Virus record (IMG/VR): IMGVR_UViG_3300044679_000035
Location: 1 to 58,814 of that record
Direction: 5' to 3' (one strand)
Source of the DNA: a virus
DNA: 58,814 bases
Numbering within the stretch: position 1 is the stretch's first letter; each line of letters starts with the position of its first letter. The translations under genes and the position numbers were made by a program. Below, in pieces: positions 13,273 through 52,677 of this stretch. The notes below the pieces were generated by a model. The model did no database searches. It was not told where the DNA came from and saw only the letters and a program-made list of their open reading frames with translations.

Positions 13273-14196
13273 TCAATGAGGTTGCCGGTATGTCAGGCGC
13301 TTGCCGACTGCCCCTTTGACGGCGCGCTCTGTCCGCATCGTGTCATCGATCCCGAACCGGACGCGGTTGCTCATGCGGAAGTCGAATTCGGCCAGATAGC
13401 GCGGTAAATGCTGCGCCGACATGTGCTGGTAGGTGCCCACAAGCCCGCGCTTGAAGATCGAAAAATAGCCTTCCGCCGAATTCGTATAGACGCGCGTGCC
13501 GTCTTCCGCCGTCTTGGCGAATTCCTTGTAATGATCGACAACTTCATGCTTCGTGGCGATGAACGGCACGCGGTAGGCGTGGTAGCCATCCGTGTGCAGG
13601 AAACTGGCCGGGTCAAGATGCTCTTTCACGATCTTGCGGATTTCCGGCACGATGGACCCTTCCGCGCCGGTCAGACGGCGCGAGCGGACGCGCCCGCCAC
13701 GCTCGACCAGCGACACGAATTTCAGGTTCTTGGTCTTGCGCGGGCGCGACTTAGGCGACTTGCCAATTTCCGTCTCGTCCACTTCCACAATCGTTTCGGG
13801 ACCGCCAAGAGGTGCGGGATCGGCTGGCGTCATGGCAGCACGAATTCGGTGGGCCATGAACCACGCGGCCTTGTACGTGATACCAAGCGAGCGGTGCAGT
13901 TGGTGGGCCGAGATGCCTTTCTTGCTGCTGGCCATAAGCCGGAACGCCAGCGCCCATTTCGTAAGCGGGAGGTGGCTGCTTTCCATGACCGTGCCTGTCG
14001 TGACCGTGAACTGGCCTTCGCAAGCGTTGCAGTGGACAAGCCCGGGGCGGTGCGCTTTGCCGTTCAGCCGGTAAACCCGTTCCGTCTCGCCGCAATGCGG
14101 GCAGACCGGACCATTCGGCCAGTGCTGTTCCTCAAAATATGCGCGGGCCTTGGCTTCGTCGGTAAAGATCGGGTCGTTCAGCAAAATCGCGGTCAT
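13273..14196 (-). CDS. tnp: IS1595-family transposase
   Basis: 307 residues from the ATG at 14196 (a TTG 15 bases earlier is open). N-terminal zinc ribbon (CPHCGETERVY... CNAC). The catalytic core has VEVDETEIG, HTDGYHAY and an Asn-flanked E...K (NSAEGYFSIFKRG), followed by YLAEFDFRMSNR. This is the IS1595/ISXO2 layout with a DDE-type catalytic set. No internal stop or frameshift, so it may be active. Promoter in the right terminal repeat. Confidence 0.9.
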   Translation of the reverse strand: MTAILLNDPIFTDEAKARAYFEEQHWPNGPVCPHCGETERVYRLNGKAHRPGLVHCNACEGQFTVTTGTVMESSHLPLTKWALAFRLMASSKKGISAHQLHRSLGITYKAAWFMAHRIRAAMTPADPAPLGGPETIVEVDETEIGKSPKSRPRKTKNLKFVSLVERGGRVRSRRLTGAEGSIVPEIRKIVKEHLDPASFLHTDGYHAYRVPFIATKHEVVDHYKEFAKTAEDGTRVYTNSAEGYFSIFKRGLVGTYQHMSAQHLPRYLAEFDFRMSNRVRFGIDDTMRTERAVKGAVGKRLTYRQPH

Positions 14197-14222
14197 GGCG
14201 GCAACTCTCAATTTCTGCCGCT

Positions 14223-24575: not shown

Positions 24576-25145
24576 ATGCTCGGCGAAACGCCTCTCACGC
24601 TCGTTAATCGGGCCATCCAACTCTTTGGTGACGACCAGCCGCCGGTCACGGGCACCTACCCGGATTTCGACAGCAGCCCGGCGGGCGTTGCCGCTGCGCA
24701 ACTCTATTTGCCCTGCGTGCAGACCGTGGCGAAGCGGTGGGGCTGGGATTACGCCCGCAGCGTCGTTGCCCTCGTCCTGACCGGCAACACGGCCCCCTAC
24801 GGCATCGCCTACGAATATGCCTACCCCACGAACGGCATCGAAATCGGCGACCTTTTCCCTGCCGCGCCGGACCCCAATAATCCGCTGCCGGTGAATCACA
24901 CGGTCGGCAACGTGATGGTCGCGGGGGTCCCGACCAAGGTGATCTGGACCAATCTGCAGAACGCGAACGCATCCATGACCGCGCAGCCGCCGCCCGCGCT
25001 GTGGGATGCAGACTTTGCCGAATCAGTGGTACGGTTGCTGGCATCGGAGATGGCTATGGCGATCGCAGGGCGTCCGCAGACCGGTTCGCAGCTCATCGGA
25101 GAAGCCGACAGCTTTGCCACGGCGGCGGAGGGCAGACCTGGATGA
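24576..25145 (+). CDS. gp11-like head-tail adaptor, copy 1
   Basis: 189 residues. LTLVNRAIQLFGDD, WGWDYARS, YGIAYEYAYP, NLQNANASMTAQPPPALWDADFAESVVRLLASEMA: the layout of T7 gp11-type adaptor proteins that form the ring between portal and nozzle. Starts directly after the tailspike stop. Its last ten codons (FATAAEGRPG) are duplicated about 540 bp downstream. Confidence 0.72.
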   Translation: MLGETPLTLVNRAIQLFGDDQPPVTGTYPDFDSSPAGVAAAQLYLPCVQTVAKRWGWDYARSVVALVLTGNTAPYGIAYEYAYPTNGIEIGDLFPAAPDPNNPLPVNHTVGNVMVAGVPTKVIWTNLQNANASMTAQPPPALWDADFAESVVRLLASEMAMAIAGRPQTGSQLIGEADSFATAAEGRPG

Positions 25146-25147
25146 GC
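25113..25147 (+). repeat. Copy 1 of the gp11-1 gene end
   Basis: 35 nt beginning TTTGCCACGG and running into the DUF1643 start (GGATGAGC). Matches 25657-25691 at 33 of 35 positions. Confidence 0.9.
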
Positions 25148-25648
25148 GCGGCATCTGGCGACCTTTTCATGGGCCGCGCGGCCATCGTCTCTGGTGACGG
25201 CAAATACCGCTACCTTCTGCATCGTGTATGGGACGCCGGCAAGCCGCGCGCGCTATTCGTCATGCTCAATCCGTCCACAGCGGACGCCGAGATTGATGAT
25301 CCGACGATTCGGTCCTGCATTCGGCTATCGAAATCTTGGGGTTACGGCAGTTTCGAGGTCGTGAATCTCTATGCCTTTCGCGCGACAGACCCGCGCGCCC
25401 TTGCGCGGGAACCGTTTCCGGTGGGGCCAGACAACAGTGGGGCGCAGGATGCCGCCATCGAGCGCTGCGATGTTGTTATTTGCGCATGGGGCGCGCATGA
25501 AATAGACACGGCGTTGGCGCGCGACCTCTACGACCGCGCCACTCTCCACCACCCCGTTTGTTATTGTCTCGGAACAACCAAATCTGGCGCCCCAAAGCAT
25601 CCGCTCTATATTGCGACAGGGGCTCCATTGGTGGAGTATCGGGCATGA
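25142..25648 (+). CDS. DUF1643 family protein (cargo gene)
   Basis: 168 residues; ATG overlaps the gp11-1 stop. YLLHRVWDAGKPRALFVMLNPSTADAEIDDPTIRSCIRLSKSWGYGSFEVVNLYAFRATDP is the signature of DUF1643, a family frequent in phages and mobile DNA with no established activity. It interrupts a row of tail-adaptor genes, so it is an accessory insertion. Its stop overlaps the ATG of a hybrid mini-ORF. Confidence 0.82.
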   Translation: MSAASGDLFMGRAAIVSGDGKYRYLLHRVWDAGKPRALFVMLNPSTADAEIDDPTIRSCIRLSKSWGYGSFEVVNLYAFRATDPRALAREPFPVGPDNSGAQDAAIERCDVVICAWGAHEIDTALARDLYDRATLHHPVCYCLGTTKSGAPKHPLYIATGAPLVEYRA

Positions 25649-25659
25649 CCAGCGTTTTT
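25642..25659 (+). repeat. Copy 1 of the gp11-2 gene start
   Basis: GGCATGACCAGCGTTTTT; the true start of gp11-2 at 26435-26452 matches 17 of 18. Confidence 0.88.
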
Positions 25660-25689
25660 GCCACGGCGGCGGAGGGCAGGCCGGGATGA
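25645..25689 (+). CDS. Hybrid mini-ORF (start of gp11-2 joined to end of gp11-1)
   Basis: Encodes MTSVFATAAEGRPG. MTSV equals the start of the gp11-like gene at 26438 and FATAAEGRPG equals the end of the gp11-like gene at 24576. Its ATG overlaps the DUF1643 stop and its TGA overlaps the methyltransferase ATG. Most likely a recombination scar that now works as a coupling leader, with GGAGGG as ribosome site for the methyltransferase. Confidence 0.7.
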   Translation: MTSVFATAAEGRPG

Positions 25690-25691
25690 GC
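25657..25691 (+). repeat. Copy 2 of the gp11-1 gene end
   Basis: Same 35 nt as at 25113 with two substitutions; here it precedes the methyltransferase start. Confidence 0.9.
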
Positions 25692-26441
25692 AATCTTCGC
25701 CTCGTGCACGGCGACTGCCGGCGCGCCATGCGCGGGCGCAAGTACGATCTGATCATTGCCGATCCGCCCTATGCCGTGACATCGCTGCGATGGGACAAAT
25801 CTGTCGATGGCTGGCTGGAAATCGCCGCCGATACCTTGCGGCCAAGCGGCTCGCTGTGGCTGTTCGGCTCCATGCGCTCCCTGATGGCGTCAGCCGTCGA
25901 GGTCGCAAATGCCGGGCTGCGCTACGCCCAAGATATCGTTTGGGAAAAGCACAACGGAAGCGCATTTCACGCGGACAGGTTCAAGCGCGTTCACGAACAT
26001 GTCGTACAGTTTTATCGCGCGGACTCACCGTGGGCTGGCGTTTGGAATGAGGTTCAGACCACGCCGGACGCAATGGCGCGCATCGTCAAACGGCGGAAGC
26101 GACAACCTTCGCACCTTGGCGAGATCAACGAGAATGGCTCGGGCTACGAGTCGATCGACGGTGGTCCGCGCATCATGCGGTCGGTTATCTATGTGCGGTC
26201 GTGCCACGGCCACGCAATCCATCCCACGGAGAAGCCTGTCGATCTTCTCGAAATCTTGATCCGGACATCGTGTCCGCCGGACGGTCTCGTCGGGGACTTC
26301 TTCGCGGGCTCCGCCGCGACAGCAGAAGCCTGCAGTCGCGCAGGGCGGCATTATCTCGGAGCCGAAATTGACGCGGACTACCATGGCGCCGCGATGGAGA
26401 GATTACGTTCGTCGCTATTTACCGGAGGCGCGGTGGCATGA
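25686..26441 (+). CDS. DNA adenine/cytosine-N4 methyltransferase (cargo gene)
   Basis: 251 residues. Catalytic motif DPPY at 26-29, then HPTEKPVDLLEILI and the AdoMet site DFFAGSAATAEA near the C-terminus: catalytic motif before AdoMet motif, as in beta-class N6-adenine or N4-cytosine enzymes. Likely modifies phage DNA against host restriction; no partner nuclease nearby. Start at 25686 follows from GGAGGG and the overlap with the mini-ORF stop. Confidence 0.85.
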   Translation: MSNLRLVHGDCRRAMRGRKYDLIIADPPYAVTSLRWDKSVDGWLEIAADTLRPSGSLWLFGSMRSLMASAVEVANAGLRYAQDIVWEKHNGSAFHADRFKRVHEHVVQFYRADSPWAGVWNEVQTTPDAMARIVKRRKRQPSHLGEINENGSGYESIDGGPRIMRSVIYVRSCHGHAIHPTEKPVDLLEILIRTSCPPDGLVGDFFAGSAATAEACSRAGRHYLGAEIDADYHGAAMERLRSSLFTGGAVA

Positions 26442-26452
26442 CCAGCGTTCTT
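26435..26452 (+). repeat. Copy 2 of the gp11-2 gene start
   Basis: Native position of the sequence duplicated at 25642. Confidence 0.88.
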
Positions 26453-27007
26453 CAGAGCCCGGAGGACATCTGCAACGCTGCCCTGGTCCGTCTCGGCTAC
26501 AAGAAAACCATCGGCAATATCTACGAAGGTTCGATGGCCTCGCGGATATTTCTGCGCATCTACGGCCAGACCCGCGACGCCCAGCTGCGCGCCAGCGATT
26601 GGGGCTTCGCGGAAGGCATCGCGGCAGGTGTGGTGGCGGGGATCGCACCGTTCCCGTGGCTGTACCAGTATGCCTATCCCGGCGACTGCCTGAAGGTCCG
26701 CGACATCTTCAATCAGCAGTCCTATGCCGGGGATCAGAACAATCCGACGCCGAACGACTGGCGCACCGGCAACGCGCTTATCAACAACGTCAGTCAGGAA
26801 GTTGTCTGGGCCAATATCGTCAATGCCACGCTGGTCTACACGCGGCAGGTCACATCGCCCGCAGCATGGACAAGCGATTTCGCCGAAGGTCTCATCGCCG
26901 CACTTGCCCGGCGCGCGCTTCCTGCTTTTCAGGAGGCGCAACTGTTGCCACAAGCAGCAAAAGACGAAGAGACCATGATCCAGATCGCCGATGCGACGCA
27001 GGGGTAA
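26438..27007 (+). CDS. gp11-like head-tail adaptor, copy 2
   Basis: 189 residues; ATG overlaps the methyltransferase stop. EDICNAALVRLGYKKTIGN-YEGS--S, TRDAQLRASDWGFAEG, YQYAYPGDCLKVRDI and WTSDFAEGLIAALARRALP define a gp11-type adaptor. Strongly similar to copy 3 over the first 65 residues, so these two are tandem duplicates. Confidence 0.75.
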   Translation: MTSVLQSPEDICNAALVRLGYKKTIGNIYEGSMASRIFLRIYGQTRDAQLRASDWGFAEGIAAGVVAGIAPFPWLYQYAYPGDCLKVRDIFNQQSYAGDQNNPTPNDWRTGNALINNVSQEVVWANIVNATLVYTRQVTSPAAWTSDFAEGLIAALARRALPAFQEAQLLPQAAKDEETMIQIADATQG

Positions 27008-27010
27008 TTC

Positions 27011-27640
27011 GTGGCACCCCTTCAAACACCGGAGCAACTCTGCAACGCCGCTCTCGCGCGCATCGGCTACAAGGAGCGCATCGGGAACCTGTACGAGGGC
27101 TCGATGGCGTCCAAGGTCGCGCTGCAACTCTATGCGGAGACGCGCGACGAAAAGCTGGCATCGTTCGAGTGGGGATTTGCAGAACGTAATGCCCAACTCG
27201 CATTGCTGAAATCGGCTCCGGTCGGCGGTTACATTCCACCTGCGGTCTGGAACCCGGCACAGAACCCGCCGCTGGGATGGAGTTACGAATTTGCCTATCC
27301 GGGCGACTGTCTCAAGGTGCGCTCGCTGCGGGTGCAGCTATTCTTCACGCCAGACTACGATCCGAAACCCGTCGAGTTCCGCATCGTGCAGGACAACACG
27401 CTGGCGACACCCGCAAAGGTCATCCTCTGCAACATCAATCCGGCATTCGTGGTCTACACCGCGCAGGTCACAAATCCGCTGGCGTGGGAGCCGGGATTCG
27501 TCGAAACACTGATCGACGCGCTCTCCAAAACCTTCGCACCCGCGCTCGCGAGAGTCGATCAGGCCGGATTCGAGGCTGAGAAAGCCGGGGCCGCGATGGA
27601 AGGCGCAGAAGCCGGACAGGCGGAAGCGAGGCTGGGATGA
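27011..27640 (+). CDS. gp11-like head-tail adaptor, copy 3
   Basis: 209 residues from GTG. PEQLCNAALARIGYKERIGN, LYEGSMASKVALQLYAETRD, WGFAERN and YEFAYPGDCLKVRSLR parallel copy 2; an Ala/Glu-rich tail is extra. Copies 2 and 3 might form a mixed ring or successive rings between portal and nozzle. Overlaps the next gene by 4 bp. Confidence 0.75.
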   Translation: MAPLQTPEQLCNAALARIGYKERIGNLYEGSMASKVALQLYAETRDEKLASFEWGFAERNAQLALLKSAPVGGYIPPAVWNPAQNPPLGWSYEFAYPGDCLKVRSLRVQLFFTPDYDPKPVEFRIVQDNTLATPAKVILCNINPAFVVYTAQVTNPLAWEPGFVETLIDALSKTFAPALARVDQAGFEAEKAGAAMEGAEAGQAEARLG

Positions 27641-28545
27641 CGAAGCCGCTTGCTATTGACCTCTGCTGCGGCCTTTTTGGCTGGTCATCTGGCCTGGTCG
27701 CGGAAGGCTGGGAGGTAATTGGGGTTGACCTTGAAGACATGCACGCGAAATTTGGTATCCCGCGACCGCCGGAATACCGGTTGATTATCCAGGATATTCT
27801 CACGCTGCGCGGCTCGCAATTCAGGAACGCCGACCTGATCGTCGCATCACCGCCCTGTCAAAAATATTCGTGGATGGCGATGCCGTGGAAGCGCGCGAAG
27901 GCCGCAGCGGCGGCAATCCGTGCCGACGAAACAGGACAGATGCTGGCCGACCTGAACCGGCTCTTCGACGCCTGCTTCCGCATCCAAGCCGAAGCGTCGC
28001 TTGCCGCCGGTCGCCATATCCCCATGATTGTCGAGAATGTCAGAGGTGCGCAGCCGTGGGTCGGACGGGCTCGACATAACTTCGGATCGTTCTATTTGTG
28101 GGGCGATGTGCCAGCCCTCATGCCGAGAGCGGAGAGGGCGCAGAAGTTCAATCCTGACGGCACGGCTCACGGTCCCGGGTCGTGGTTTGCGATTGCCGAT
28201 AGCAAAAATCGCGGCGCGAACGGTCAGAAGAATCCAGGGTTTCGGTTCGACGGCAGCGGGCGCAGTTTCCAAACCGAAAGCGTTGCGCGCCATTGCGGGA
28301 CGAAAGTTCCGACGCAAAGTGCCGGGCGCAGTCCTGCGCCCGGCACTGGCGAGCGGTTCACGTCTCGGGACTGTGGCACGAAAAACGGGAACGATTGGTT
28401 TGGGGCGGGCGAGGATTGCAGCTTGCAGCGCCGTCAAGGATCGAAGTCAATTGGTCGAAAAGCGGCCAGCGCCATGATCGCGAAAATCCCGGAGCCATTG
28501 TCTCGTTACATCGCAACTACGTTCAAGCCGCGCGAGGCTGCATGA
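27637..28545 (+). CDS. DNA cytosine-5 methyltransferase-like protein (cargo gene)
   Basis: 302 residues. Motif I DLCCGLFGWSSGL (8-20), motif IV with PPCQ (72-75, catalytic Cys 74), ENV (133-135), and a C-terminal IPEPLSRYIATTF like motif X. Shorter than bacterial enzymes, with an unusual region of CGTK repeats between motif VI and the end. Together with the N-methyltransferase it probably protects phage DNA. Inserted among adaptor genes with 4-bp overlaps at both ends. Confidence 0.82.
   Translation: MTKPLAIDLCCGLFGWSSGLVAEGWEVIGVDLEDMHAKFGIPRPPEYRLIIQDILTLRGSQFRNADLIVASPPCQKYSWMAMPWKRAKAAAAAIRADETGQMLADLNRLFDACFRIQAEASLAAGRHIPMIVENVRGAQPWVGRARHNFGSFYLWGDVPALMPRAERAQKFNPDGTAHGPGSWFAIADSKNRGANGQKNPGFRFDGSGRSFQTESVARHCGTKVPTQSAGRSPAPGTGERFTSRDCGTKNGNDWFGAGEDCSLQRRQGSKSIGRKAASAMIAKIPEPLSRYIATTFKPREAA
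28318..28347. repeat. Perfect 14-bp inverted repeat inside the C5 methyltransferase gene
   Basis: Left arm AGTGCCGGGCGCAG, two-base centre TC, right arm its exact complement. It falls in-frame at about residues 228-237, outside the methyltransferase motifs. Confidence 0.85.
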
Positions 28546-29468
28546 GCGGAACCCCGGCATCCTTGGTCAATAGAGCCCTCGATCAGCTCGGCAGACCGGA
28601 GCTTGCGCTCGGAGAATTGGAAGAGGGTACCGAAGGCGCCAAGCCTGCGCTTCGTGCCTATGGTCCAGCCGTGCGCCAGTTGCACCGCGTCGCGCATTGG
28701 GACTTCGCCCGGAAACAGGCACCCCTCCTCATGCTCGGCGATGCGACCGGGCAAACGCCGAATGTTGGCAAGAAAGTGTTGGCCCCATTTTGTTATGAGT
28801 ACGCATTACCAATCGACTGCATGAAAATGCGTTTCGTGCCGTGGAACTCCAATCCGCAGCAACCAAACCCGCCGATCATGACGGGGCTCGGGCAGCAACC
28901 GCTCAATGCCGTCCGCCTGAGACCTGCCCCGTTCCTGCTGTCGCTCGATTATAATTATCCAGTCGAGACCGGGAACGCCATCGTTGCGCAAGGAATACCG
29001 GACTGGGCGAACTGCACCGGGACCGGGCCGCAGCAGCGCACCGTGATCCTGACGAATGTCCCGCCGCAGCCGCAGACCAATGCGCCCGTCGTCATGCCGT
29101 GTGCCGTCTACACATGCCTTGTCGTCTATCCGAGCCAGTGGGATTCGCTGTTCGAGCAGGCGCTTGTAAATTATCTGGTCCAGCTTCTCGCGATGGCTTT
29201 GGTCAAGGGCACGATTGCGGAGAAGCGGGCCGTCAGGGATGACGCAATCAAGATCGCGAAAGGGATGATCGAGGAAGCCCGCGCGACCAACGCAAATGAA
29301 AGCGGCTATCCCCAAACGACTTCGCATACGCCAGATTGGATCAGCGCCCGAAACCAAGGAGGAGGGAATTACGGCGGATGGGGGGGTAGCTACGACGGCT
29401 ACAGCGGGCCGGGGATACTGTGGGGCGGCTATGATTCGGTGGCGTGGTCAGATGGAAGCGTGTATTGA
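28542..29468 (+). CDS. gp11-like head-tail adaptor, copy 4 (long)
   Basis: 308 residues. ASLVNRALDQLGRPELALGELEEGTEGAKPALRAYGPAVRQLHRVAHWDFARKQAPLLMLGD is a clear gp11-type opening, followed by YEYALPIDCMKMRFVP. The C-terminus carries an added Gly/Tyr-rich tail (GNYGGWGGSYDGYSG) that could bind the nozzle or a fibre. Overlaps its neighbours by 4 bp. Confidence 0.75.
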   Translation: MSGTPASLVNRALDQLGRPELALGELEEGTEGAKPALRAYGPAVRQLHRVAHWDFARKQAPLLMLGDATGQTPNVGKKVLAPFCYEYALPIDCMKMRFVPWNSNPQQPNPPIMTGLGQQPLNAVRLRPAPFLLSLDYNYPVETGNAIVAQGIPDWANCTGTGPQQRTVILTNVPPQPQTNAPVVMPCAVYTCLVVYPSQWDSLFEQALVNYLVQLLAMALVKGTIAEKRAVRDDAIKIAKGMIEEARATNANESGYPQTTSHTPDWISARNQGGGNYGGWGGSYDGYSGPGILWGGYDSVAWSDGSVY

Positions 29469-32400
29469 GCACGCCTTTCATCCTGCCTTCATTCGCCGCC
29501 GGAGAACTCGCGCCGTCGATGTATGGCCGTGTCGATCTGGCGAAGTTTCATATAGGTCTGGCAACGGGCAGGAATGTGTTCGTCGGATTCCGCGGCGGCG
29601 TCTATTCCCGCGCCGGAACCGCTCTCTGCAACTACTCCAAGCAGACCGGGCGCAATGTTCCGCCGCGCACGGTCGCATTCCAGTTCTCCGCGCTTCAGGG
29701 CCTCTGCCTTGAGTTCGGCAATCTCTACATGCGCGTCTTCTCCAACGGGCAGGCCGTCACCGAGTCGCCCACGGACATCTCCGCGATCACGCAAGCCAAT
29801 CCCGGCGTCGTCACGGACACCGGGCACGGTTATTCCAATGGCGACTGGGTTTATCTGTCAGGCATCGGCGGGATGACGGAATTGAACGGTCGCACGCTGG
29901 TCGTGGCCGGCGCGACCACAAACACGTTCACGCTCACCGATGTTTTCGACAACGCGATCGACACGACGGCATACGCCGCCTACACCAGCGGGGGTACCGC
30001 AGCGCGCATCTATACCCTGACGACGCCCTATTCCGAGGTCGATCTGCGCTGGCTGAAATTCACGGAGAGCGACGATGCCGTCACGATCTGCGGCTGGAAT
30101 CAGGCGACGGGCGCCAATTACCCGCCCTACGCCCTGTCGAGGTCCGCTGACGATAGCTGGACGCTGACGGAACTGACATTCGGCTCCGTGATCGCGGCGC
30201 CGGCGACATGCACCGGAGCGGCCAGCAACATCTACGGCGGCAGCGGGTCACCTAACAACAAGCCGACCGATTATCAGTACGTCGCGACCGCCGTCGATTT
30301 CAATACCGGGCAGGAAAGTCAGGCATCGCCGATTGCGAATATCCCGAATTCGGTGGACATCGCCCTTTCTGCCGGCTCAATCAGTCTGACTTGCGCCCCT
30401 GTGACCGGCGCTTATTACTATAACTTCTATCAGGCACCCCCGGCCTACAACGGTACCGTTCCGGATGGCAGCCTGTTCGGCTACATCGGAACCAATTTCG
30501 GACCAAGCTTTGTCGATACCAACATCGAGGCCGATCTCTCTCAGGTTCCTCCGCTCCACAATGATCCTTTTGCGCCGGGGCAGATATTCGCCATCGAAGT
30601 GACGAACCCGGGTTCCGGACTGGAATCCGTGACGTGGACAATCGGGATAGGGACGGCAGCCGGCGTCGGAACCGGATTCGAGGGCTATCCGATCATCGTC
30701 AACCAGCAGCTTCTCGGATTCTTTGTCACCGACAACGGCACCGGATACCAGGTCGGCAATACGATCACTTTCGACGGTGCCGCCTTCGCGACGGGCACGC
30801 TGACCTTTGCCGCGCAACCGACGGCAGGTGACACCATCGGACTGGGAGTGCTGCCCGCCGTGACGTGGACCTTTGTCGCGACGCGCGGCGGCTCCAACCA
30901 GACCGTCATCCAGGATAACTTGGCCGACACCCTGATCCAGCTCGCGACCGATCTCTCCAATTCCGCAGTTCCCGACATCGCGGCTGCCAATTACGTCGCG
31001 ACATCGGGCACCGTTTTGACGATCCAGTACGGGACGGCGGGGATAGGGGGAAATTCCTACACGCTGGCGACATCGAGCGCGAACGTCACTCTTTCCGGTG
31101 CCACTCTCAGCGGCGGCAGCGGCAGTTCCGGCACGGCACCCTCCGCGGTGCTCTCCATCGGCCCGCTGCTCGGCACCTATCCAAGCGTCCCGGCCTATTT
31201 TCAGGAACGCTTGGCGCTGATGGCGACCCCGAACCAGCCGGACACCTATCGGTTCTCGCAGCCCGGAAAGTTCAACAATTTCGACAGCCGCGTCCCTCCG
31301 GTGGACAGCGACGCCATCACAGGAACTCCATGGGCCGTCGAGGTCAACGGAATCCAGTGGGGCATCCCGATGCCGGGCGGACTCGTTGTGCTGACCGGTC
31401 TCGAAGCGTGGCAGCTCACCGGCGCCGGGGGCTCTGCGATCAATCCGCAGCCGATTACGCCGTCGAGCCAGCAGGCCCAGCCACAAGCCTATAATGGCTG
31501 CTCCGCGATCATCGCGCCGCTGAAAATCGACGCCGATATCCTCTACGCGCAGACCCAAAACCAGCAATGGTTCGATCTGGCGTATCAATACTGGGTCAAC
31601 ATCTACACCGGCGCCGACCTGACTTTCATTTCGCCGCACCTCTTCGCGAACTATCAAATCTGGGATCGGGCCTGGTGTCAGGTGCCGAACCGGATTCTCT
31701 GGAGCGTGAGAAACGACGGTATCCTTCTCAGCCTGACCTATTACAAGCAGCAGGATGTCATGGGATGGACGCGGCACGATACCAGCGGACAGGTCTGGAG
31801 CGTTGCTTCCGTGACGGAGCCGCCGGTCGATGCGCTTTATCTGGCGACGTCGCGCTTCACCTATGGCGGCGAAGCCTATTTCATCGAGCGCATGGACAAC
31901 CGGATATGGACGGCTTCCGAAAATACGTGGTGTGTCGATTGCGCGCTGTCGAGCCTGTCATCGTTCGCCTATCCCGACGCCATTCTCAGCGTCACGGCAG
32001 GCGGCGCGAATGGCCTCGGTATCCCGACCGGCGTCACGGGACTCGTCGGAGGGTCCGGCTATTCGGCGGCGACGGCCGGCAGCATCGTCGATCCGACCGG
32101 CTCCGGTTGCGTGGTCAATCTCACCATCGTGGCCGGAGTCATTACCGCAGTCGGCTTTACCGGCGGCACGAATTACACCTATCCGCAGCTTGTTTTTAAT
32201 GATCCAAACGGCACCGGAGAAGGAGCGTCGGCGACGGTCACGCTGAACAACGGCGCGACATTCTTGGCCTCGGCCGCCGTGTTCTCCGGCGGCGACGTCG
32301 GCTCCGCGATCAGGATGGGTGGCGGTCGCGCCATCATCACGACGGTAAATTCCTCCACGACGGTTACCGCAACGATTGTCGCCCCAATCGTGCAGGTCAA

Positions 32401-33085
32401 TCCCGAGGGCGGCATGCTGCCGTTCCCGGCGCAGTCCGGCTCCTGGAGCATGGCGCCGCAGTCGACCAGCTTCGGCGGCCTCTGGCACCTCGAAGGCCTC
32501 GGCGTCATCGGAATCGCGGACGGAATCCCGGTCGGTCCCCTCACGGTGCAGCCCGACGGCACCGTGACGCTGCCTTTCGCGGCCAGCTACGTCACGCTGG
32601 GGTTCGGGTTCACCCCGCAGGTTCAGTCCCTGATGACGGATTTCGGGCAGCCGACTTCACAGGGGCGCCGCAAGAAAATTTCCGCGATCTCGGCGCGGCT
32701 GGAGGCTTCCGGGGCCGATTTCATCATTGCCGGGGCCAACCAGCCCGATGGATCCGCACAGAGCCCGCCGGAGGTCACGATTGCATGGCCCGGCATGACC
32801 GCAGAAGTCCAGTTGCCGCCTAATCAGGGCAGGCCGCCCTACGGCAGTTCGGTCGATCCGCTTTTCACCGGAGACGTCCGTGTGGCTGTCGCTGGCGGGT
32901 TCCAGAAACCGGGACAGGTTGCTCTGCAGCAGACCGTTCCGCTTCCGATGAACCTGCTGGCCTTCATGCCGGAAATTTTAGAAGGAGATGAGCCACAGGA
33001 GCAGCCAGTTCAGGAGCCGGGCGGCGTCAAGCGGTTCTCGTGGGGGGCGTCGCAACTGCTGGGCCGGCAGAGGCGCGCGGCGTGA
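29465..33085 (+). CDS. Tail nozzle protein, gp12-like, enlarged
   Basis: 1,206 residues from the TTG overlapping the previous stop, with GGAAG seven bases upstream; a GTG seven codons earlier is an alternative. The start FILPSFAAGELAPSMYGRVDLAKFHIGLATGRNVFV is the standard opening of T7 gp12-type nozzle proteins. T7 gp12 is about 800 residues; the excess comes from inserted beta-rich domains (about 110-200 and 360-560) with a TGHGYSNGDWVYLSGIGGM ubiquitin-activating-like motif. Closes the tail tip. Confidence 0.82.
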   Translation: MSTPFILPSFAAGELAPSMYGRVDLAKFHIGLATGRNVFVGFRGGVYSRAGTALCNYSKQTGRNVPPRTVAFQFSALQGLCLEFGNLYMRVFSNGQAVTESPTDISAITQANPGVVTDTGHGYSNGDWVYLSGIGGMTELNGRTLVVAGATTNTFTLTDVFDNAIDTTAYAAYTSGGTAARIYTLTTPYSEVDLRWLKFTESDDAVTICGWNQATGANYPPYALSRSADDSWTLTELTFGSVIAAPATCTGAASNIYGGSGSPNNKPTDYQYVATAVDFNTGQESQASPIANIPNSVDIALSAGSISLTCAPVTGAYYYNFYQAPPAYNGTVPDGSLFGYIGTNFGPSFVDTNIEADLSQVPPLHNDPFAPGQIFAIEVTNPGSGLESVTWTIGIGTAAGVGTGFEGYPIIVNQQLLGFFVTDNGTGYQVGNTITFDGAAFATGTLTFAAQPTAGDTIGLGVLPAVTWTFVATRGGSNQTVIQDNLADTLIQLATDLSNSAVPDIAAANYVATSGTVLTIQYGTAGIGGNSYTLATSSANVTLSGATLSGGSGSSGTAPSAVLSIGPLLGTYPSVPAYFQERLALMATPNQPDTYRFSQPGKFNNFDSRVPPVDSDAITGTPWAVEVNGIQWGIPMPGGLVVLTGLEAWQLTGAGGSAINPQPITPSSQQAQPQAYNGCSAIIAPLKIDADILYAQTQNQQWFDLAYQYWVNIYTGADLTFISPHLFANYQIWDRAWCQVPNRILWSVRNDGILLSLTYYKQQDVMGWTRHDTSGQVWSVASVTEPPVDALYLATSRFTYGGEAYFIERMDNRIWTASENTWCVDCALSSLSSFAYPDAILSVTAGGANGLGIPTGVTGLVGGSGYSAATAGSIVDPTGSGCVVNLTIVAGVITAVGFTGGTNYTYPQLVFNDPNGTGEGASATVTLNNGATFLASAAVFSGGDVGSAIRMGGGRAIITTVNSSTTVTATIVAPIVQVNPEGGMLPFPAQSGSWSMAPQSTSFGGLWHLEGLGVIGIADGIPVGPLTVQPDGTVTLPFAASYVTLGFGFTPQVQSLMTDFGQPTSQGRRKKISAISARLEASGADFIIAGANQPDGSAQSPPEVTIAWPGMTAEVQLPPNQGRPPYGSSVDPLFTGDVRVAVAGGFQKPGQVALQQTVPLPMNLLAFMPEILEGDEPQEQPVQEPGGVKRFSWGASQLLGRQRRAA

Positions 33086-34205: not shown

Positions 34206-36454
34206 TGGCGCGCGTCGAAGGCAGCGTTGGTATCCCGGATGTCGCACCGCAGATCGAGGGCGAGCGCGTACAGGCCAATCCGGAACAGGCCGGCGCACAG
34301 GTCGGGCAGGCGCTTCAAGGCGCCGGGACCGCTGCGATCGACGCCGGCAAGCTGTACGGACAGGTCGCCGCCGATCAGGCCAATAACGAATACATGGACA
34401 GCGCCACGGCGATCCGGGCGCACATGCGCAGCCTCCGCGGTCAGGACGCCATCACGTATCTGCCCGAAGCCCAGCAGCAGCTCGACAATCTTTATAAAAC
34501 CACCAAGGCCAAGCTCTGGACAACCGAATCGCAGCTATCCTTCGATCAGGATTCCCGCCGGACTCGCGCGCTGATTTCAGGCGATATTCAGGACTACGCC
34601 TCGGGGCAGCATCTGGATTGGGCAAAATCGGTTAACGACACCGGGATATCCTTCTGGAAGGGGCAGGCTGCGGTCGCGGCGCAGAGCGGCGATCAGTTGC
34701 TTTCCGCGATGGCCCTGCATCACCTGCGCACCTATTACGGGCAAAATGCCGATCTCGTTTTCGGCCAGGCGACTGATTCCGGAACGCCGCAAGGGCAGGC
34801 GAAACTTCAATATCTGAACCAAGCGGACGCCGAGTTCGCAAAGTCGCAGTTCAACGCCATCGTCGATAAAGATCCGGTGCGCGCCCAGAAAATTCTGGAT
34901 CAAAACGCCGGCGTTCTCGGAAGCGATCCAGACTACGACCGGATGCTCCGCGAGGCCAAAACGCAACTGGTCGAGTCCAATATCACCCCAATTGTTGACA
35001 GCCATATCAGTGCCGCGCTTTCGCAGGCACAGGCAGCGTCATCCGGGCAGGCGCAGGCGGGCGCTTCCAACGCGAACAATCTTGGAAATGTGAAGGATGC
35101 GACCGGCGGCTTCGCGGCCCCCGCGACTCCCGTCGATGGGGCCGTTCTCGCGGCGAACACGCTGCGCACCGGCTACCGTGGGCTGACGCTTGAACAGATT
35201 GCCGCGAAGTGGGCTCCGGCATCGGACCACAACAACCCGGCTCAATGGGCGGCGAATGTCAGTCGAGTGTCGGGCATTTCGGTCAACGGCACGCCGAATC
35301 TGGACGATCCGAAACAACTCAGTGCAGTCCTGCATGGAATTACCGTTGCGGAAAAGAGCGGTGCCGATCAGGGAAAATTCACTCCGGAAATAATCAATCA
35401 GGGCGTGACGGCGGCGCTCTCGGGCCAAAAACCGACATTGCGCGCCGCCGCCTGGTGGAGCGGCGCGCATCTCAGCATCCCCGATCAGTTGCGGCTCAAC
35501 GAAACGGCATTCCTCGACGGCGTCCGCAAGGATGCCAAGGCAAAATTCGGTGACCAATACCCTGACGCCGTGGAACGTACCGTGACGTCGGCGCAGCGGC
35601 AGTACGAGCAGAGGTTCAGCCAGCAGGAACAGCAGTACACCGTGGCGTCCCACATCGTGCAGATCGCGATGGTCGACAATCACTATATCTCAGAAGCGCA
35701 GCTTTTGCGAGACCCGCAAGCCGGGCCAGCATGGGAGATAATGAAAATCAATGATCCTTGGCACGCGGGAGCTATTGAGAATGTGTTCAACGCCAACGCT
35801 CGCGGGAAAGCGGTCAATTACGGCACGGATTTCGGCTCCCTGCTGGATCGTGTGCTGGCACCCCGCGGGGCGCCGTCGCGGCTCAATGATCCGTCGTCAA
35901 CGTGGGACTATGTTACGCCCGGTGAAGATGGACCGCTGACGAACACCGGCAATACTGTGCTCGCCGGACTGATGAAAATGCGTGAGTCGCCGAAAGGGGA
36001 GGCAAACGCGACGTTGCTGCGCAACTTCTTCCGCGAGGCTCATACGCTGCTGTCGCGCCAAGACCCGAATCTCGGTTTTTATGATCCGAAGGGGGAGACC
36101 GCGTACAACCGATTCATCGCTGGTGCGCTCCCGATGATCGAAGTCGCGATGGCTCAGCATGAACCTCTTTCCGCCATTCTCGCGCCGAAGGGCGATGTCT
36201 ACAATTCGATATTTCAGTACAAGCGCAAGCCCGGCCAGGACATGGCGGACCGCATCCAAGACCCCAATAATCCGATGGTGCAGGCGGCAAACCAGACCGA
36301 CGATCAGCGCGCTCAAGCACAAGCCGATCTGAAGGCCCGCTACGCCAAGGCCAAGACACCGGATGAAAAGGCCGCGATCGCTCAGGAAGGCATTCAGCGC
36401 GGCTGGATCGCGGCACCACAGGCACCGAAGCCAGAGGTTCAGTGGCCGCAATGA
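34205..36454 (+). CDS. Internal virion protein, gp15-like, with a P5-like domain
   Basis: 749 residues, mostly helical, in the place of T7 gp15, which spans the periplasm at ejection. Residues about 290-400 differ: NNLGNVKDATGGFAAPATPVDGAVLAANTLRTGYRGLTLEQIAAKWAPASDHNNPAQWAANVSR resembles the phage structural P5-type domain (NPGNI...F..FP....G..A....L..Y...T...I...WAP..ENN), often found in wall-penetrating virion proteins. Peptidoglycan cleavage is possible but unproven. ATG overlaps the previous stop. Confidence 0.65.
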   Translation: MARVEGSVGIPDVAPQIEGERVQANPEQAGAQVGQALQGAGTAAIDAGKLYGQVAADQANNEYMDSATAIRAHMRSLRGQDAITYLPEAQQQLDNLYKTTKAKLWTTESQLSFDQDSRRTRALISGDIQDYASGQHLDWAKSVNDTGISFWKGQAAVAAQSGDQLLSAMALHHLRTYYGQNADLVFGQATDSGTPQGQAKLQYLNQADAEFAKSQFNAIVDKDPVRAQKILDQNAGVLGSDPDYDRMLREAKTQLVESNITPIVDSHISAALSQAQAASSGQAQAGASNANNLGNVKDATGGFAAPATPVDGAVLAANTLRTGYRGLTLEQIAAKWAPASDHNNPAQWAANVSRVSGISVNGTPNLDDPKQLSAVLHGITVAEKSGADQGKFTPEIINQGVTAALSGQKPTLRAAAWWSGAHLSIPDQLRLNETAFLDGVRKDAKAKFGDQYPDAVERTVTSAQRQYEQRFSQQEQQYTVASHIVQIAMVDNHYISEAQLLRDPQAGPAWEIMKINDPWHAGAIENVFNANARGKAVNYGTDFGSLLDRVLAPRGAPSRLNDPSSTWDYVTPGEDGPLTNTGNTVLAGLMKMRESPKGEANATLLRNFFREAHTLLSRQDPNLGFYDPKGETAYNRFIAGALPMIEVAMAQHEPLSAILAPKGDVYNSIFQYKRKPGQDMADRIQDPNNPMVQAANQTDDQRAQAQADLKARYAKAKTPDEKAAIAQEGIQRGWIAAPQAPKPEVQWPQ

Positions 36455-39400
36455 GTGCCACCGGCAAGCTACCCACAGCGGACGAATTTTTCGGGTCCGG
36501 ACCGTCCGGCACCCTGCCAACCGTCGACCAATTTTTTGCCCCTCCAAAGCCAACCTTGGCGCAGGGCGCCATGTCTGCGCTCGCGGTCGCCGGCAGCGAA
36601 ATGGAGGGGCTTCCGCACGCCGAAGCTTCCGCCGACATGGACGATTTTATTAAAAATACTCCCGTCGGGCATGTTCTGGACGCCTTCGGGCAGGGCTTTC
36701 GTCAGCAATGGGGAACCGATGCTGGAACGTTTCCAGAGGAGGTGTCGGACTGGCTCAAAAAGGCTGGCCTCTTCCACGATTATGAGAAGCGTCGAACCGG
36801 GCTCATCAATAGCTTCAACGAGGGAATCATCCGGGCCACCTACGGGCTCGCCGATATGGCGAACCGCGCCATCGGCGGTGTCGTCGGTGGCGCCGAACAG
36901 GCCGCCTACCAGACCGGCATCGAGACGGGGCAGCCCCAACTTGGGCATGAAGCCGCCGCGGGCATCGAATACGCGACGCAGCGCGGCGATATCCTGGCCC
37001 GATCAATTCCGGAGACGACATATCTGGGCGGCCAGATCGCCAAAGCGCGCGGGCTGGCCGTCATCGGGGAAGGCGAGGGCGGATTCTTCGGCACCAAAGA
37101 GCCGACGCCGGAGACCGCAGCGGCGCGCGCCGAAGCCGTCAAGGCCGAAACCGAGCATGCGGCGGCGCAAGCAAAGGAGACCTGGCAGCCAGAACCAGGT
37201 GCCCAGGGCCAAGCCGAAACGCCGGCGCAGCGGGCGCCGCAAGCGCCCCCAGAGCCAACGCTCGACGACATCGCGCGCCAGATCGCACCGCAAGCCTTCC
37301 AGCAACGCGATGCGCTCGCCGTTCGGGAGCAGACCTATCGGCGATGGCTCCGCGAACTCGGCGATGCTCGCGCGCAGCTTCCGGAAGTGCAGGAACTCCA
37401 AGGCCGCATCGGGACCATTCTGGACAAGGTGAACGGCGTCGAGGATCGCCTGACCGGGAAGGCGGCGCAGCGGTTGAGCGATGCCCGCGACCGTCTCGAT
37501 GAAATCTTCCGCACCGACACCGGCGACATGGCCCACGTCCGCGCCAATTTGATGGAAGCCACGCACGGACTCTGGGATGTGGCGCCGCGGATCCGCGCGG
37601 CCTACGAGGAAGCGCAGCGCCGCTTGCCGCCGGCACCTGAAAATGTTTCTGTGGAACAGAATGTTGCACGCGCCGAAACGTCGCCGGAAGCACAACCCGC
37701 CACCCCTGCGCAGCCGCCAGAACAAGCGGCCGCTGGGCAAAACGTGCAGCCGGTGCTCGCTGCAGGCCCCGAGTCCGGGGCAGCGGTATTGCCTGGATTG
37801 CCACGCGGAGGCGCAGCGGGCTTACCGCTGCCGCCAGCGGCTGCTGAAGGAATGGCTGCGGCGCAAGGTGAAGGAACTGGAGCGCCGATTGGAGCAGAGA
37901 AACTTGGCGATTTAGGCGGTGCACAGCCGCCAGCCGTCCCAGCACAGCCACAACCAAGCATCGCCACCGATGTAGCCCGAAAACTCGTTTTCGCCGGACG
38001 CCCGCAGGAAGAAGCCGACGCGGCGGGCGCGCTGCTACAGGCCCATTATGAGGCCCGTGCGGCGCGCTTCAATGGCGCTCTCGGGACAGCCGATCAAATC
38101 TATGCCCGCGAAGGCCCCGCGATCCGTCGTGGGCGCGGACTGGGGCCGGTGCCGGCACCGCAGCCGGGCCAAACTGCTGCGGCTCCGGCACCGAAACCTG
38201 CCGACCCCACAAAGGCACCTTCGGAACTGGAATCGCTGGACCCCGCACAGATCAAGGTCGATCCGGGGCGCTTCCAGTTCAAAGCCGATACCGGCGAGCG
38301 CGGTATCTCGGAACGGCTTCAGGGCGTCGAGCAATGGGATCCCAGACTTGCCGGCACCGCGCTGGTCTGGCGCGACGCCACCGGACAGGACTGGATCGCC
38401 GACGGTCACCAGCGGTTAGGGCTCGCGCAGCGGCTCACGGAAGCCGGACAGCCAGGAATCCGCCTCAATGCCTTTGTTTTGAATGCCGCCGAAGGGGTCA
38501 GCGACGCAGACGCGCGCGGGATCGCAGCGGCCAAGAATATCGCGGAAGGCACCGGGACCGCTATCGATGCCGCCAAGGTGATCCGCGAGGCCAAGGCGAA
38601 GGGGATCGAATTGCCGCCGATGCCGCCGCGATCCGCTTTGGTCCGCGATGGTCGGGCGCTGGCGCGGCTGTCACCGGAAGCGTTCGGCATGGCCGTCAAC
38701 GATGTCGTCCCCACCAATCAGGCCGCCATCGTGGGGCGCCTTGTCGATGATCCTTTGGCGCAGACCGAGGCCATGCGGGTGCTCGCCAAGACGAAGCCGG
38801 AGAACGCGCGCCAGGCCGAAATGATCGTCCGCGACATGCTGGCATCCGGCGTCGAGGAAATGACGAAGCAGGGCGGATTGTTCGGGGAAGAGCATTTCGC
38901 CGCCTCGACCGTCATGGAGCGCGCCAAGATCGCCGACGAAGCGATGCGCCAACTCAAACGCGACAAGGCGACATTCAAGGTTCTCGTGGATGAGGCCGCG
39001 CGCATCGAAGGCCACGGCCAAAATGTGCTTGACGTTGAAGCCAACAAGGGACGATTGACCACCGATGAGCAAGCGGCACAGTTCCTCACCCAGCTCGCAA
39101 CCCGCAAAGGTGAAGTCAGCGACGGCCTCACCGCCATCGCCAAACGACTCAAATCCGGCGACGTCACGGCCGCAGCCGGAGCCCGGGAGTTTCTCGGGAT
39201 TGTCCGGACCGCAGCTGAAAAAGGCTTGGCAGCAGGGCCAGACCTTGGCCGCGCTGAGTCTGGGCCAGAGCGAGACATCGAACTCTTCCAATCCGGATTA
39301 AAACAGACCGAACTCCCGGGGCTCGCCGACGAGACGGCCGCCGAACGGAAGGCGCGCCTCGGCCGCCAACTGATCGAGGAAAGCAGGCAGTTGCCGCGCG

Positions 39401-42400
39401 CCGTTTCGCGCAAGGCGCAGAAGCCGCTCGAAGAGGGATTGTTCGCGCCGCCGCCGGAGCGGACGCTGTTTCAAGGTGGCGGCGAGCAACCGACATTTTA
39501 TTCCGCGCTGACGCGATCCGTCGAAGGACTGAAACTCGAAAAGGCTCCCGCCGATCAGTGGCTCAACACGATCCGCAATATTCCCGGCGTCAAGAAAGAA
39601 GAACTCGAATGGAGCGGCGTCGAGGACTGGCTCAAAGAGCAGAAAGGTCCCGTCACCCGTGCGGCGGTTACTGATTATCTCCACGAGAATGAAGTGCACG
39701 TGCAGGAAGTGCAGAAGGGCGGACCGCATGGCGCGACCGACGATGAACAGGGCGCGCTCGAAGTCGCCATGACCAATGCCGTCAACAAAGGCATCGTCGA
39801 TAATGGCGCATCGGCAAAATTCTATGACGACATCGTTCGTGGAGATTCGCAGGCCATTGGCGATGCGGAGGCAATCGGCATCCCCGATAGCGTACTCGCG
39901 CCATTCCGAGATCGTGAACGGGCACCCACAAAGTTTGGTCCCGGATCAGGTCCGGGCGCACCGCTCCCCGGCGGCGCCAACTACCGGGAACTGCTGCTGA
40001 CGCTGCCAGAGAATCCGGAAGTCAGAAGAGCCGGAGATGCAGCCGCAGACTCCGCAAAACGCATGCGCGAAAAGTACGGCGAGCGATGGGCCATGACGGC
40101 GCCTGCTGACGAAGTGCTTGCCCATGGTGGCTTGGAAGAGCGGCGCCAGGCATTGTCGAAGCAAAACGAGTTCCGCGCTTCGCATTGGGCCGAACCGAAT
40201 GTCCTCGCGCATGTCCGCTTCGATGATCGCACCGGACCCAACGGCGAGAAGGTTCTGCACGTCGCGGAGATACAGAGCGACTGGCATCAGAAGGGGAGAA
40301 AGCAGGGATATGAGCAAGCTGCAGGACCGGAGTATTACCTCAGAATGCCAGATGGAGAAATCGGCCAGGATTTCGCTTCGCGCGAGGAAGGGGAGGCGTT
40401 TATTCGTGATCATCCCGGCGCTGGCATCCTCGACAGGCAATCGCCAAATACAACTGGCGTCCCCAACGCTCCCTTCAAAACTTCATGGCCCGAACTCGCG
40501 ATGAAACGCATGATCCGCTACGCCGCCGAGAACGGCTATGATCGGATTTCGTGGGATACCGGCGACACCAACGCCGAACGGTACGACCTTAGCAAACAAA
40601 TAAATGAGATTCATTATCTCAAGCGTCCTGACGGCCGCTATGACATCGTTCCGATAAAGAACGGGCACGTCTTTGAAGGTTTGCGTCACGACGCAGTGCC
40701 AGAAGAAAAATTGCCCGATATTCTTGGGAAGGATGTAGCCAAAAGAATTGCCGATGGTGCCGGTGACGATCTCGCGCGCGGGTACAAAAAATTGACTGGC
40801 GATAATCTCAAGGTCGGCGGCGAAGGAATGCGCGCATTCTACGACAAGCACCTTCCGATCATAGCAAACAAGCTCGGCAAGAAATTCGGCGCGAAGGTCG
40901 AGGAATCGCGCTTGGGAATGCCAGACGATAAGACCGTGCAGAACGAAGGAACCGCCGCAACGCGCGCCGCCCTGGGCATAGACACGGTTCATTCCCTCCC
41001 GATCACCGACACCATGCGCGACTCCGTCATGGAGGGCCAGCCGCTCTTCCAAGGCAAACGCGGTGCCATCGCATTCCGTGATGCCCGCGCCACGATCCGC
41101 TTCATGCGCGATGCCGACTCGTCCACGTTCCTGCACGAGACTGCGCATCAATGGCTCGAAGAACTGATCCGTGATTCCCGCGACCGGCGCGCGCCGCCGG
41201 ATGTCGGGGCCGATGTCGGAACCGTTCGTGACTGGTATAATAACGTCAAGCGAAACACGGAGCCGGAATGGAAGGCCGATGGGGCGGTTCCAGATGAGGC
41301 CCATGAACTCTGGGCGCGCGGCTTCGAGCGTTACTACCGCGAGGGTGCGGCACCATCGCAGCGGCTCGCAACCATCTTCGCGAAATTCAAGGCGTGGCTG
41401 ACGAAAATCTACAAGACGGCGGAAGAACTGCACGCGCCGATCAATGACGAAATCCGCGCCGTCTACAGCCGCCTTCTCAGCACGCCGGAGGAACGCGCCG
41501 CCATCGCGCCGGAGCGTCCCGCGCCCCCGACATTGGCCGACATGCACGAGGAAGACGCGGCCCTGACGCCGGCGCAACATGCCGGAACGATGGCCGATGT
41601 CATCCGCAGCGAAATCGACAACAGGGCAAAGGATGTCGCCCCGGAGGTCCACAATGAACTCCCCGGAAAAGCAGAAACTGGACGAATCCAGCGAGAGAAC
41701 CCGCCTCTTCCAGGTGGCGGCGATGAGGCCGGGCCAATCCCCGGAGAAAATGCTGGCGCTGGCGGAACTGGAGCGGAGCCAAAGGGCGGAAACCCGATTG
41801 CGGCAGAAGGCGCTCGCCCACGCGGAGGAGCAGGCGGCGCAGGAACCAAACCCCCAAGCGGACCAAACGCCGCTTTCGAGCGACCAGAGTCAGACCTGAT
41901 CGACAAGGCCGGAAATATCCGCGTCGATAATCTGAACACGACGGCGGATGTCGATCGCCTCATCCATGATGTCGCCGACGAGAATGGCGGCTTTGCGGGC
42001 GTCCGAATCCCGATGTCCGACTCGCAGGCGCTCGATCTCGCCGACGCGATGGGGCTGCGGCCGGAGGACCTGAATGGCACCCAACTCGCCAATTTCACCC
42101 GTGCGCACGCCTTTGCGGTCCGCAAGCTTTTTGTCAGCGTCGCCACAGAAACCAACAGGGCAGCCGCCAAGGCGGCGGCCGGAGGCGACGCCGACGTGCT
42201 GGCCTATGCTGCGGCGCGCTCCCGGATGCGGATGGCGCAGGAACATCTCTCGGCGCTGACCTATGCGGCTGGCTCCGTGCTGCGCGGATTCCAGAAGCTC
42301 CCCGGCACTGCAGAGGCCAAGGGGCTCGCGCAAATGATGGGCGACCTTTCGGAACAGCGCAGCCTGTTCCAGTTGAAGCAGGAAGCCAAGCGCGTGGCCC

Positions 42401-51449: not shown

Positions 51450-51682
51450 TCCGCACCCCCCGCTATTTCGGCTTCGCGCGCCAAGACAGCCAGCGACCGC
51501 GCGATGCTCATTGTTATCTCCGACTCGAGTTCGGCTTCGTTGATGGTCGCATCGCTGCCAGCGTGAAGGCATGATCGCGGAATCCATACGTCAGTGCTGG
51601 CGGTTTCGTCGGTCGCGACGCAAATAGCCTTCTTGGTGCGCCGCACAAGGATGACCGACACGGTGACATATTCGTCGCTCAT
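51446..51682 (-). CDS. Hypothetical early protein
   Basis: 78 residues from the ATG at 51682. Beta-rich start (YVTVSVILVRRTKKAICVATDE) and acidic C-terminal helix. Directly after the RecT gene with a 4-bp overlap. Unknown role. Confidence 0.55.
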   Translation of the reverse strand: MSDEYVTVSVILVRRTKKAICVATDETASTDVWIPRSCLHAGSDATINEAELESEITMSIARSLAVLAREAEIAGGAE

Positions 51683-52677
51683 GACGTGGTTGCCGTTTCG
51701 GCTTGCTCGGCAAGCGGCTTGATGGTTTTGTCCTTGAACTGCCTCAAAGCGTGCTGAAGACGGGGCGACGTCTTGCCAAGACGCTCCCACAGTGCCGAAA
51801 CAGGTGCCAGCCCACCCTCGGCCGCCTCCAGAAGTTCGCGCTTCCAGCGCTCAATCTCGGCGTCTGGCTTGGGTCCGATGATTTCCTGCATCGGCGGCGT
51901 CTCGCTGGCCTGCGCGGGCGGGAAGGGGGACTCGGTGCGGCCGTCGACAATGAGCTGCCCATCCTCGCTAATGGCGCTCGACAGGCCCTGCTCCTCCCAA
52001 GCCTCGTCGATACGCGCGGCGAGATGGTAATCGCGGGTCAGGGCGTTCATGGGCATGGAGCGCCGCAGTCGGCGGCGGCATGTCTTGGCGTACATCGCCG
52101 GCCGGCCGACCTTGGGATCGGCCCAGGGGGAGAATCCGTCGCCCTTGTTCGCGGCCTGCGATTTTTCGCGCACGGCTTCCAGATCCGAAAGGCGTAAGAC
52201 CTCGATCAGGGCGGGCAGCGTTTTCGACTCCGCCACCGCCCAGGCGCAAATGATGCGCCCCTCTTCCGCCATGTTGATCTTGTGTCGCAGATAAGCCCCA
52301 GTCCCCTTCATATACTCGAAATCGTCTTTTTCCCTGACGACATCGGCGTTGATCGAATAGCCTGACCGCGCGCCAAGTGTGTTGAGTCCACAATAACCCG
52401 TCTGGAATTGCGCAATGAGGCCTAGCCTCTTGTCATTGTAGGGCACGAGGTAGCCTTGCCCCGTCACCCCATCGACCTCCAAGCCGAGGAAAGCCGCAGT
52501 CATGGCCGAACTGAACAGACTTTGCCGCGAGCACTCCAGCAGCTTTGGCGTCTTCTCGCAGGACACCATGATCGTGCGCATCAGCCGTTCCGCCGGCATC
52601 CGGTCCGCAAGGGCCTGCTGCAGCTTCGGCAGTAGCGGACGGAGCTGCGTTTCGAGGAGGACGAGATCGTTAGACAT
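51679..52677 (-). CDS. recT: RecT-family single-strand annealing recombinase
   Basis: 332 residues from the ATG at 52677. CSRQSLFSSAMTAAFLGLEVDGVTGQGYLVPYN, LIAQFQTGYCGLNTLGARSG and GRPAMYAKTCRRRLRRSMPMN match the RecT fold. It anneals complementary single strands in phage recombination and end repair, working with the YqaJ-type exonuclease encoded upstream. The start overlaps the ATPase stop by 8 bp. Acidic disordered C-terminus. Confidence 0.9.
   Translation of the reverse strand: MSNDLVLLETQLRPLLPKLQQALADRMPAERLMRTIMVSCEKTPKLLECSRQSLFSSAMTAAFLGLEVDGVTGQGYLVPYNDKRLGLIAQFQTGYCGLNTLGARSGYSINADVVREKDDFEYMKGTGAYLRHKINMAEEGRIICAWAVAESKTLPALIEVLRLSDLEAVREKSQAANKGDGFSPWADPKVGRPAMYAKTCRRRLRRSMPMNALTRDYHLAARIDEAWEEQGLSSAISEDGQLIVDGRTESPFPPAQASETPPMQEIIGPKPDAEIERWKRELLEAAEGGLAPVSALWERLGKTSPRLQHALRQFKDKTIKPLAEQAETATTS

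Follow-up and report, generated by a model that had tools for sequence, protein, structure and literature searches.

A hybrid mini-ORF between two stacked cargo genes in a phage tail gene row, probably a scar of unequal recombination

Introduction

How do two unrelated cargo genes come to be stacked at a single boundary in a tightly overlapping row of phage tail genes, with a hybrid open reading frame of only 14 codons between them? We consider this question for an uncultured, podovirus-like phage known from a virus record of 58.8 kb (58,814 nt), the whole of which is referred to here as the window. Profile matches identify a head-tail adaptor (phrog_332), an internal virion protein and gp11/gp12-like tail genes in it. 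An original prediction, made from the sequence of this locus, held that the small reading frame combines the start of one tail gene with the end of another, and that it arose by recombination between relatives with different cargo. We asked how these claims fare against related phages, control junctions and known systems.

The tail gene row and its cargo

The row reads, all on the plus strand, A, DUF1643, mini-ORF, methyltransferase, B, C, a cytosine methyltransferase-like gene, D and a gp12-like gene. A (gp11-1, 24576-25145), B (gp11-2, 26438-27007), C (gp11-3, 27011-27640) and D (gp11-4, 28542-29468) all match the profile of the T7 gp11-like tail protein (phrog_394; E-values from 9e-13 to 5e-27). 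The gp12-like tail gene (29465-33085) probably starts at a TTG within a TTGA overlap with D, an alternative GTG start lying at 29444. Elsewhere in the window, a gene of 2606 codons (36442-44262) has partial profile matches to an internal virion protein and an endolysin, and a 30-bp tandem repeat of 6.6 copies (58618-58814), inside which the contig ends, codes on its minus strand for a repeated MAAGWTPSDL. The window also holds a transposase gene of the IS1595/ISXO2 type (13273-14211, minus strand); a search nearby found no terminal inverted repeats, so this gene is possibly a fixed or degraded element.

The first cargo gene (25142-25648) belongs to DUF1643 (PF07799; 145 bits against a cut-off of 22.5). 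Its AlphaFold model has a pLDDT of 90.6 and matched no fold in the PDB at E <= 0.001, with best TM-scores of about 0.3, which leaves the idea of a uracil-DNA glycosylase-like protein unsupported. On its profile match (PF01555; 117 bits, cut-off 26.7) and its DPPY motif (ADPPY), the second (25686-26441) is assigned as an orphan N6/N4 DNA methyltransferase. A third cargo gene, C5-cytosine methyltransferase-like (27637-28545), occupies the C|D boundary, where it overlaps each neighbour by ATGA and shows no scar; homologues of it occur in two related assemblies (L171 and L087), in both cases outside the row. DUF1643, N6_N4_Mtase and DNA_methylase are the only Pfam domains among the cargo of the window, and Pfam gives no endonuclease domain in or flanking it.

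The two stacked genes show no sign of being a travelling unit. Of 30 related records, L130 is the only one with a near full-length homologue of the N6/N4 methyltransferase; this homologue belongs to the corresponding gene row, is 60% identical, sits at D|gp12 and meets gp12 in a TGATG junction. DUF1643 homologues occur in two of these records. In other phages, the 45 loci with a methyltransferase homologue and the 30 with a DUF1643 homologue are mostly separate and mostly outside gp11 rows, and the best relatives of one gene are rarely near the other. These separate distributions fit two separate acquisitions that were stacked later, and both genes are accessory. A DNA similarity search in annotated phages returned just short matches in the DUF1643 region.

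The mini-ORF and its copied gene ends

Between the two cargo genes lies the hybrid mini-ORF MTSVFATAAEGRPG (25645-25689, plus strand; 14 codons, 45 nt), in which the four codons that open B are fused in frame to the last ten codons of A, with the translation MTSV-FATAAEGRPG. Both halves proved to be copies, as predicted: its opening (25642-25659) agrees with the start of B (26435-26452) at 17 of 18 nt, and its closing (25657-25691) with the end of A (25113-25147) at 33 of 35 nt. Each cargo gene therefore has an end of A upstream and a start of B downstream. The two mismatches between the A ends, AGA/AGG and CCT/CCG, are both synonymous. Each pair is unique within the window, and shuffled sequence gives expected numbers of chance matches, at up to three mismatches, of 0.00 (A end) and 0.14 (B start). 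Ungapped scores in the cargo region reached 29 and 15, whereas shuffles gave at most 11 and 10, respectively. Chance is excluded as the origin of the repeat pairs.

At the fusion point, B-derived ...AGCGTT abuts A-derived TTTGCC... with no overlapping base, and the longest exact repeat is 23 nt. The earlier proposal that the two pieces were joined through a short TTT match has to be given up: B proper reads GTTCTT here, so that a C-to-T change must be assumed, and the breakpoints at this left joint resemble each other no more than random pairs do. Stop and start codons were also predicted to overlap by 1 to 4 bp at the four internal junctions from A to B; they do overlap at every one, but by a uniform 4 nt (ATGA at 25142, 25645, 25686 and 26438).

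Such stop/start overlaps, here four times ATGA, are a mark of termination-reinitiation. The copied end of A has GGAGG some 10 nt upstream of the ATG, so that the original copy provides the Shine-Dalgarno and ATGA overlap of DUF1643 and the second copy those of the methyltransferase. Predicted duplexes with the anti-Shine-Dalgarno have energies of -10.0 kcal/mol for DUF1643 and -11.2 kcal/mol for the methyltransferase, within the best 2-5% of background or random sites. Because the copied A end brings with it the Shine-Dalgarno of the next gene, the scar probably preserves translational coupling into the methyltransferase. In E. coli, fifteen nt of the upstream gene are enough for termination-reinitiation (PMC10666635), from which we predict that an ORF of 45 nt could relay coupling. 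RNA structure at the junctions gave no signal (z ~0.4).

Cargo slots in related phages

Alignment scans with gp11 and gp12 yielded about 180 loci of relatives, which clustering at 90% identity of A reduced to 63 clusters that hold A and a next gene. A junction was counted as occupied at >= 90 bp for A|next and at 120 bp for C|D and D|gp12. Among the 63 clusters, 51 leave A|next empty and 12, counting the window, have cargo there, which bears out the description of this junction as an occasional cargo slot and supplies the cargo-free relatives that had been looked for. Empty junctions are usually of the TGATG type or ATGA, with a 1-nt overlap in 31 of the 51 and a 4-nt overlap in 5. Relatives with a single cargo gene at A|B, be it DUF1643 or the methyltransferase, were also sought; none was found in searches from which records very close to this phage may be missing, and the nearest A protein among relatives is 58% identical. 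No relative carries the mini-ORF or a copied flanking end. In viral contigs, a search for close relatives by the B protein gave three pattern matches, none of them confirmed, and a degenerate pattern for the A-end peptide matched nothing; a search for the A gene in 397 genomes, from the order of a prophage-bearing Rhizobium strain, recovered just that known prophage relative.

Cargo is also found further along the row, at 14 of 71 distinct C|D junctions and 12 of 65 distinct D|gp12 junctions. At C|D, seven loci hold EndoVII-type proteins, in which the domain is C-terminal save for one of intermediate reading; an EndoVII motif at the C-terminus typifies the F-CphI endonuclease clade (PMC6083498), and these proteins may home. 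The C|D cargo of L166 is a methyltransferase, the A|C cargo of L170 is an HNH_3 protein with a weak AP2 match, and D|gp12 holds minus-strand genes for GIY-YIG or HNH_3 proteins in L010, L178, L123, L134 and L174. The D|gp12 slot of L130 (3108-5160) contains the methyltransferase homologue, an ORF of 78 codons that has a relative in L154 and, on the minus strand, a gene whose GIY-YIG match is sub-threshold, so that a putative endonuclease and a methyltransferase share one slot. Two A|C insertions stand out: one in L153 (758-1378) matches PF20911, the GP7 major capsid protein, which is odd between tail genes, and one in L022 (4351-7453) spans 3.1 kb and includes a collagen-repeat protein. Extra C-like copies occur in L113 (A-C-C-C-D), L109 (A-C-C-D) and L025 (A-C-B-C-D), and these expanded rows suggest tandem duplication of adaptor-like genes.

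Cargo does not always enter such rows by copying the flanking gene ends. A further 26 cargo junctions served as a control, C|D of the window among them, and none showed a copy of a flanking end above shuffled sequence. In six comparisons of filled with empty junctions, with flanks about 67-89% identical, the stop before the cargo and the start after it are both intact, and nothing is duplicated. The hybrid mini-ORF is thus a one-off scar and not the normal mode of cargo entry.

Origin of the scar

We think it likely that the mini-ORF is the recombination scar of an unequal exchange between a phage with A-DUF1643-B and a phage with A-methyltransferase-B. The parents would have been two closely related phages, each with one passenger between A and B. 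During a mixed infection, unequal exchange would have linked the first phage, from a position 12 nt into its B gene, to the second, at a position some 33 nt short of the end of its A gene, with A - DUF1643 - [B start/A end] - methyltransferase - B as the product. On the right, ordinary homology within B presumably completed the exchange, while the left joint, with no shared bases, would be illegitimate or formed through longer homology that has since been lost. By luck the joint would have kept both frames, so that the 14-codon product restores the chain of stops and starts (ATGA...ATGA), and the copied A end would place a strong Shine-Dalgarno directly before the methyltransferase, leaving the second cargo gene coupled. 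That A-end copies identical at 33 of 35 nt differ only synonymously fits parents from one closely related group. Of the original claim of recombination between relatives with differing cargo, the fusion and the empty junctions speak for it; single-cargo parents were absent from the relatives examined. The sequences themselves show the fusion and its uniqueness, the empty junctions of relatives, the copied Shine-Dalgarno and the recombination genes; from these we infer that there were two such parents, which enzyme acted and that coupling takes place in vivo.

The window encodes a candidate agent, a RecT single-strand annealing protein (51679-52716, minus strand), together with a YqaJ-type nuclease (55469-56482, minus strand) that is its likely partner. 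RecT may have carried out this exchange; phage Rad52-like recombinases tolerate diverged sequence (PMC3945230). An RtcB RNA ligase gene (54240-55466, minus strand) adjoins these recombination genes.

The same final structure could have arisen within one lineage, had two copies of A-X-B, for example those of a concatemer, undergone unequal exchange to A-X-[b/a]-X-B and one X then been swapped for the other cargo gene through flanking homology. Unequal exchange does occur in these rows, as their varying copy number indicates (A-C-D, A-B-C-D, A-C-C-C-D), and the near identity of the A-end copies agrees with such a duplication. The route needs two events, however, and a duplicated cargo gene is present in no relative, so we regard it as unlikely and favour the two-parent exchange on grounds of parsimony: that one event fits best, accounting for the two copied pieces as well as for the order in which they stand and their being adjacent. 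Somewhat less probable still is an origin in homing endonuclease damage, in which the enzyme of a co-infecting relative cuts near the start of B, one-sided repair copies B, the methyltransferase and the A end of another phage, and end-joining closes the break at the scar. Such repair should leave one joint homologous and the other illegitimate, as inferred here, and endonuclease genes are frequent at the row junctions of relatives (EndoVII-like in seven loci at C|D, HNH_3 in L170, GIY-YIG or HNH_3 in five loci at D|gp12, besides the sub-threshold GIY-YIG of L130). Yet the row of the window is free of endonuclease genes, none of the relatives' endonuclease loci at the A-D junctions bears a similar scar, and no cut site is known; moreover, damage of this kind would refine the two-parent exchange rather than replace it.

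It is improbable that the mini-ORF was selected for a function, such as that of a leader peptide or a coupling relay, and arose by local copying of the ribosome-binding site at the end of A instead of as a side effect of stacking. The strong Shine-Dalgarno of the copied segment, its ATGA overlaps on both sides and the synonymous nature of both A-end changes speak for such a part, but local copying leaves the adjoining copy of the B start unexplained, cargo in relatives sits beside stops and starts with no such element, and the RNA structure signal is absent. The record was apparently assembled from uncultured material, which raises the thought of an assembly or amplification chimera of two strain variants. 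Assemblers join at shared k-mers, whereas not one base is common to the two sides of the b/a joint, and no exact repeat exceeds 23 nt. Neither frame is broken, every overlap has been kept, and two synonymous sites distinguish the copies of the A end. We consider a chimera very improbable.

Comparison with known systems

The two-parent exchange has a close counterpart in mycobacteriophages. Gene 68 of Island3, compared with Brujita, is an inserted gene that comes with 18 codons (~50 bp) copied from the end of its upstream neighbour, and recombination through the copied sequence was the explanation given (Pope et al., 2011; PMC3029335). In both phages a gene missing in a relative comes with a copied upstream gene end; Island3 has one inserted gene and one copied end, whereas the window has two cargo genes with a fusion of B start and A end between them, as a separate mini-ORF. 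With copied flanking ends (33/35 and 17/18 nt) and an insertion absent in 51 of 63 clusters, we class the scar with mosaic-junction scars of the Island3 gene 68 type, to which the window adds the B-start/A-end fusion between two stacked cargo genes. Models of phage mosaicism invoke conserved boundary sequences or relaxed recombination (PMC3945230; discussed in PMC3029335). The window resembles both in the exchange of related phages at gene boundaries and in encoding an annealing recombinase, but here the exchange would have been unequal, so that cargo was added and not swapped, and the illegitimate joint is still readable.

Two other classes of inserted gene resemble the cargo in position. Morons typically carry their own promoter and terminator. 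Like them, the cargo of the window consists of extra genes between two genes that are contiguous in relatives, but it is locked into the operon by 4-nt overlaps; ATGA at all boundaries leaves no intergenic space for a promoter or terminator, promoters inside coding sequence aside, and we reject this classification. Free-standing homing endonucleases and HEG-islands also lie between conserved genes, as do the seg and mob genes of T4 (PMC2988022) and those of ICP1 (PMC10448857), and may share a stop/start overlap with their neighbour, as in the UAAUGA of T4 nrdA/mobE. Genes of this kind occupy row junctions of relatives, but the DUF1643 and methyltransferase cargo of the window has no endonuclease domain according to Pfam and none flanks it in the row, so that it is neither a homing endonuclease element nor a HEG-island.

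Implications for phage mosaicism

More tentatively, and with considerable doubt, the gp11 row could be viewed as a serial docking strip in which every boundary can take passengers between a stop and a start, unequal exchange can stack them, and the B/A fusion acts as a minimal 14-codon relay that sustains translation into the added gene. At most mosaic joints of phages the trace of origin has been lost, whereas the joint in the window can still be read: it shows gene ends joined in what would have been an unequal exchange, by which a gene was added and not swapped, while the frames and the chain of stops and starts were kept. The boundaries of the row are repeatedly used cargo slots, often taken by endonuclease genes, and their comparison makes the entry of cargo into tightly overlapping operons a testable question.
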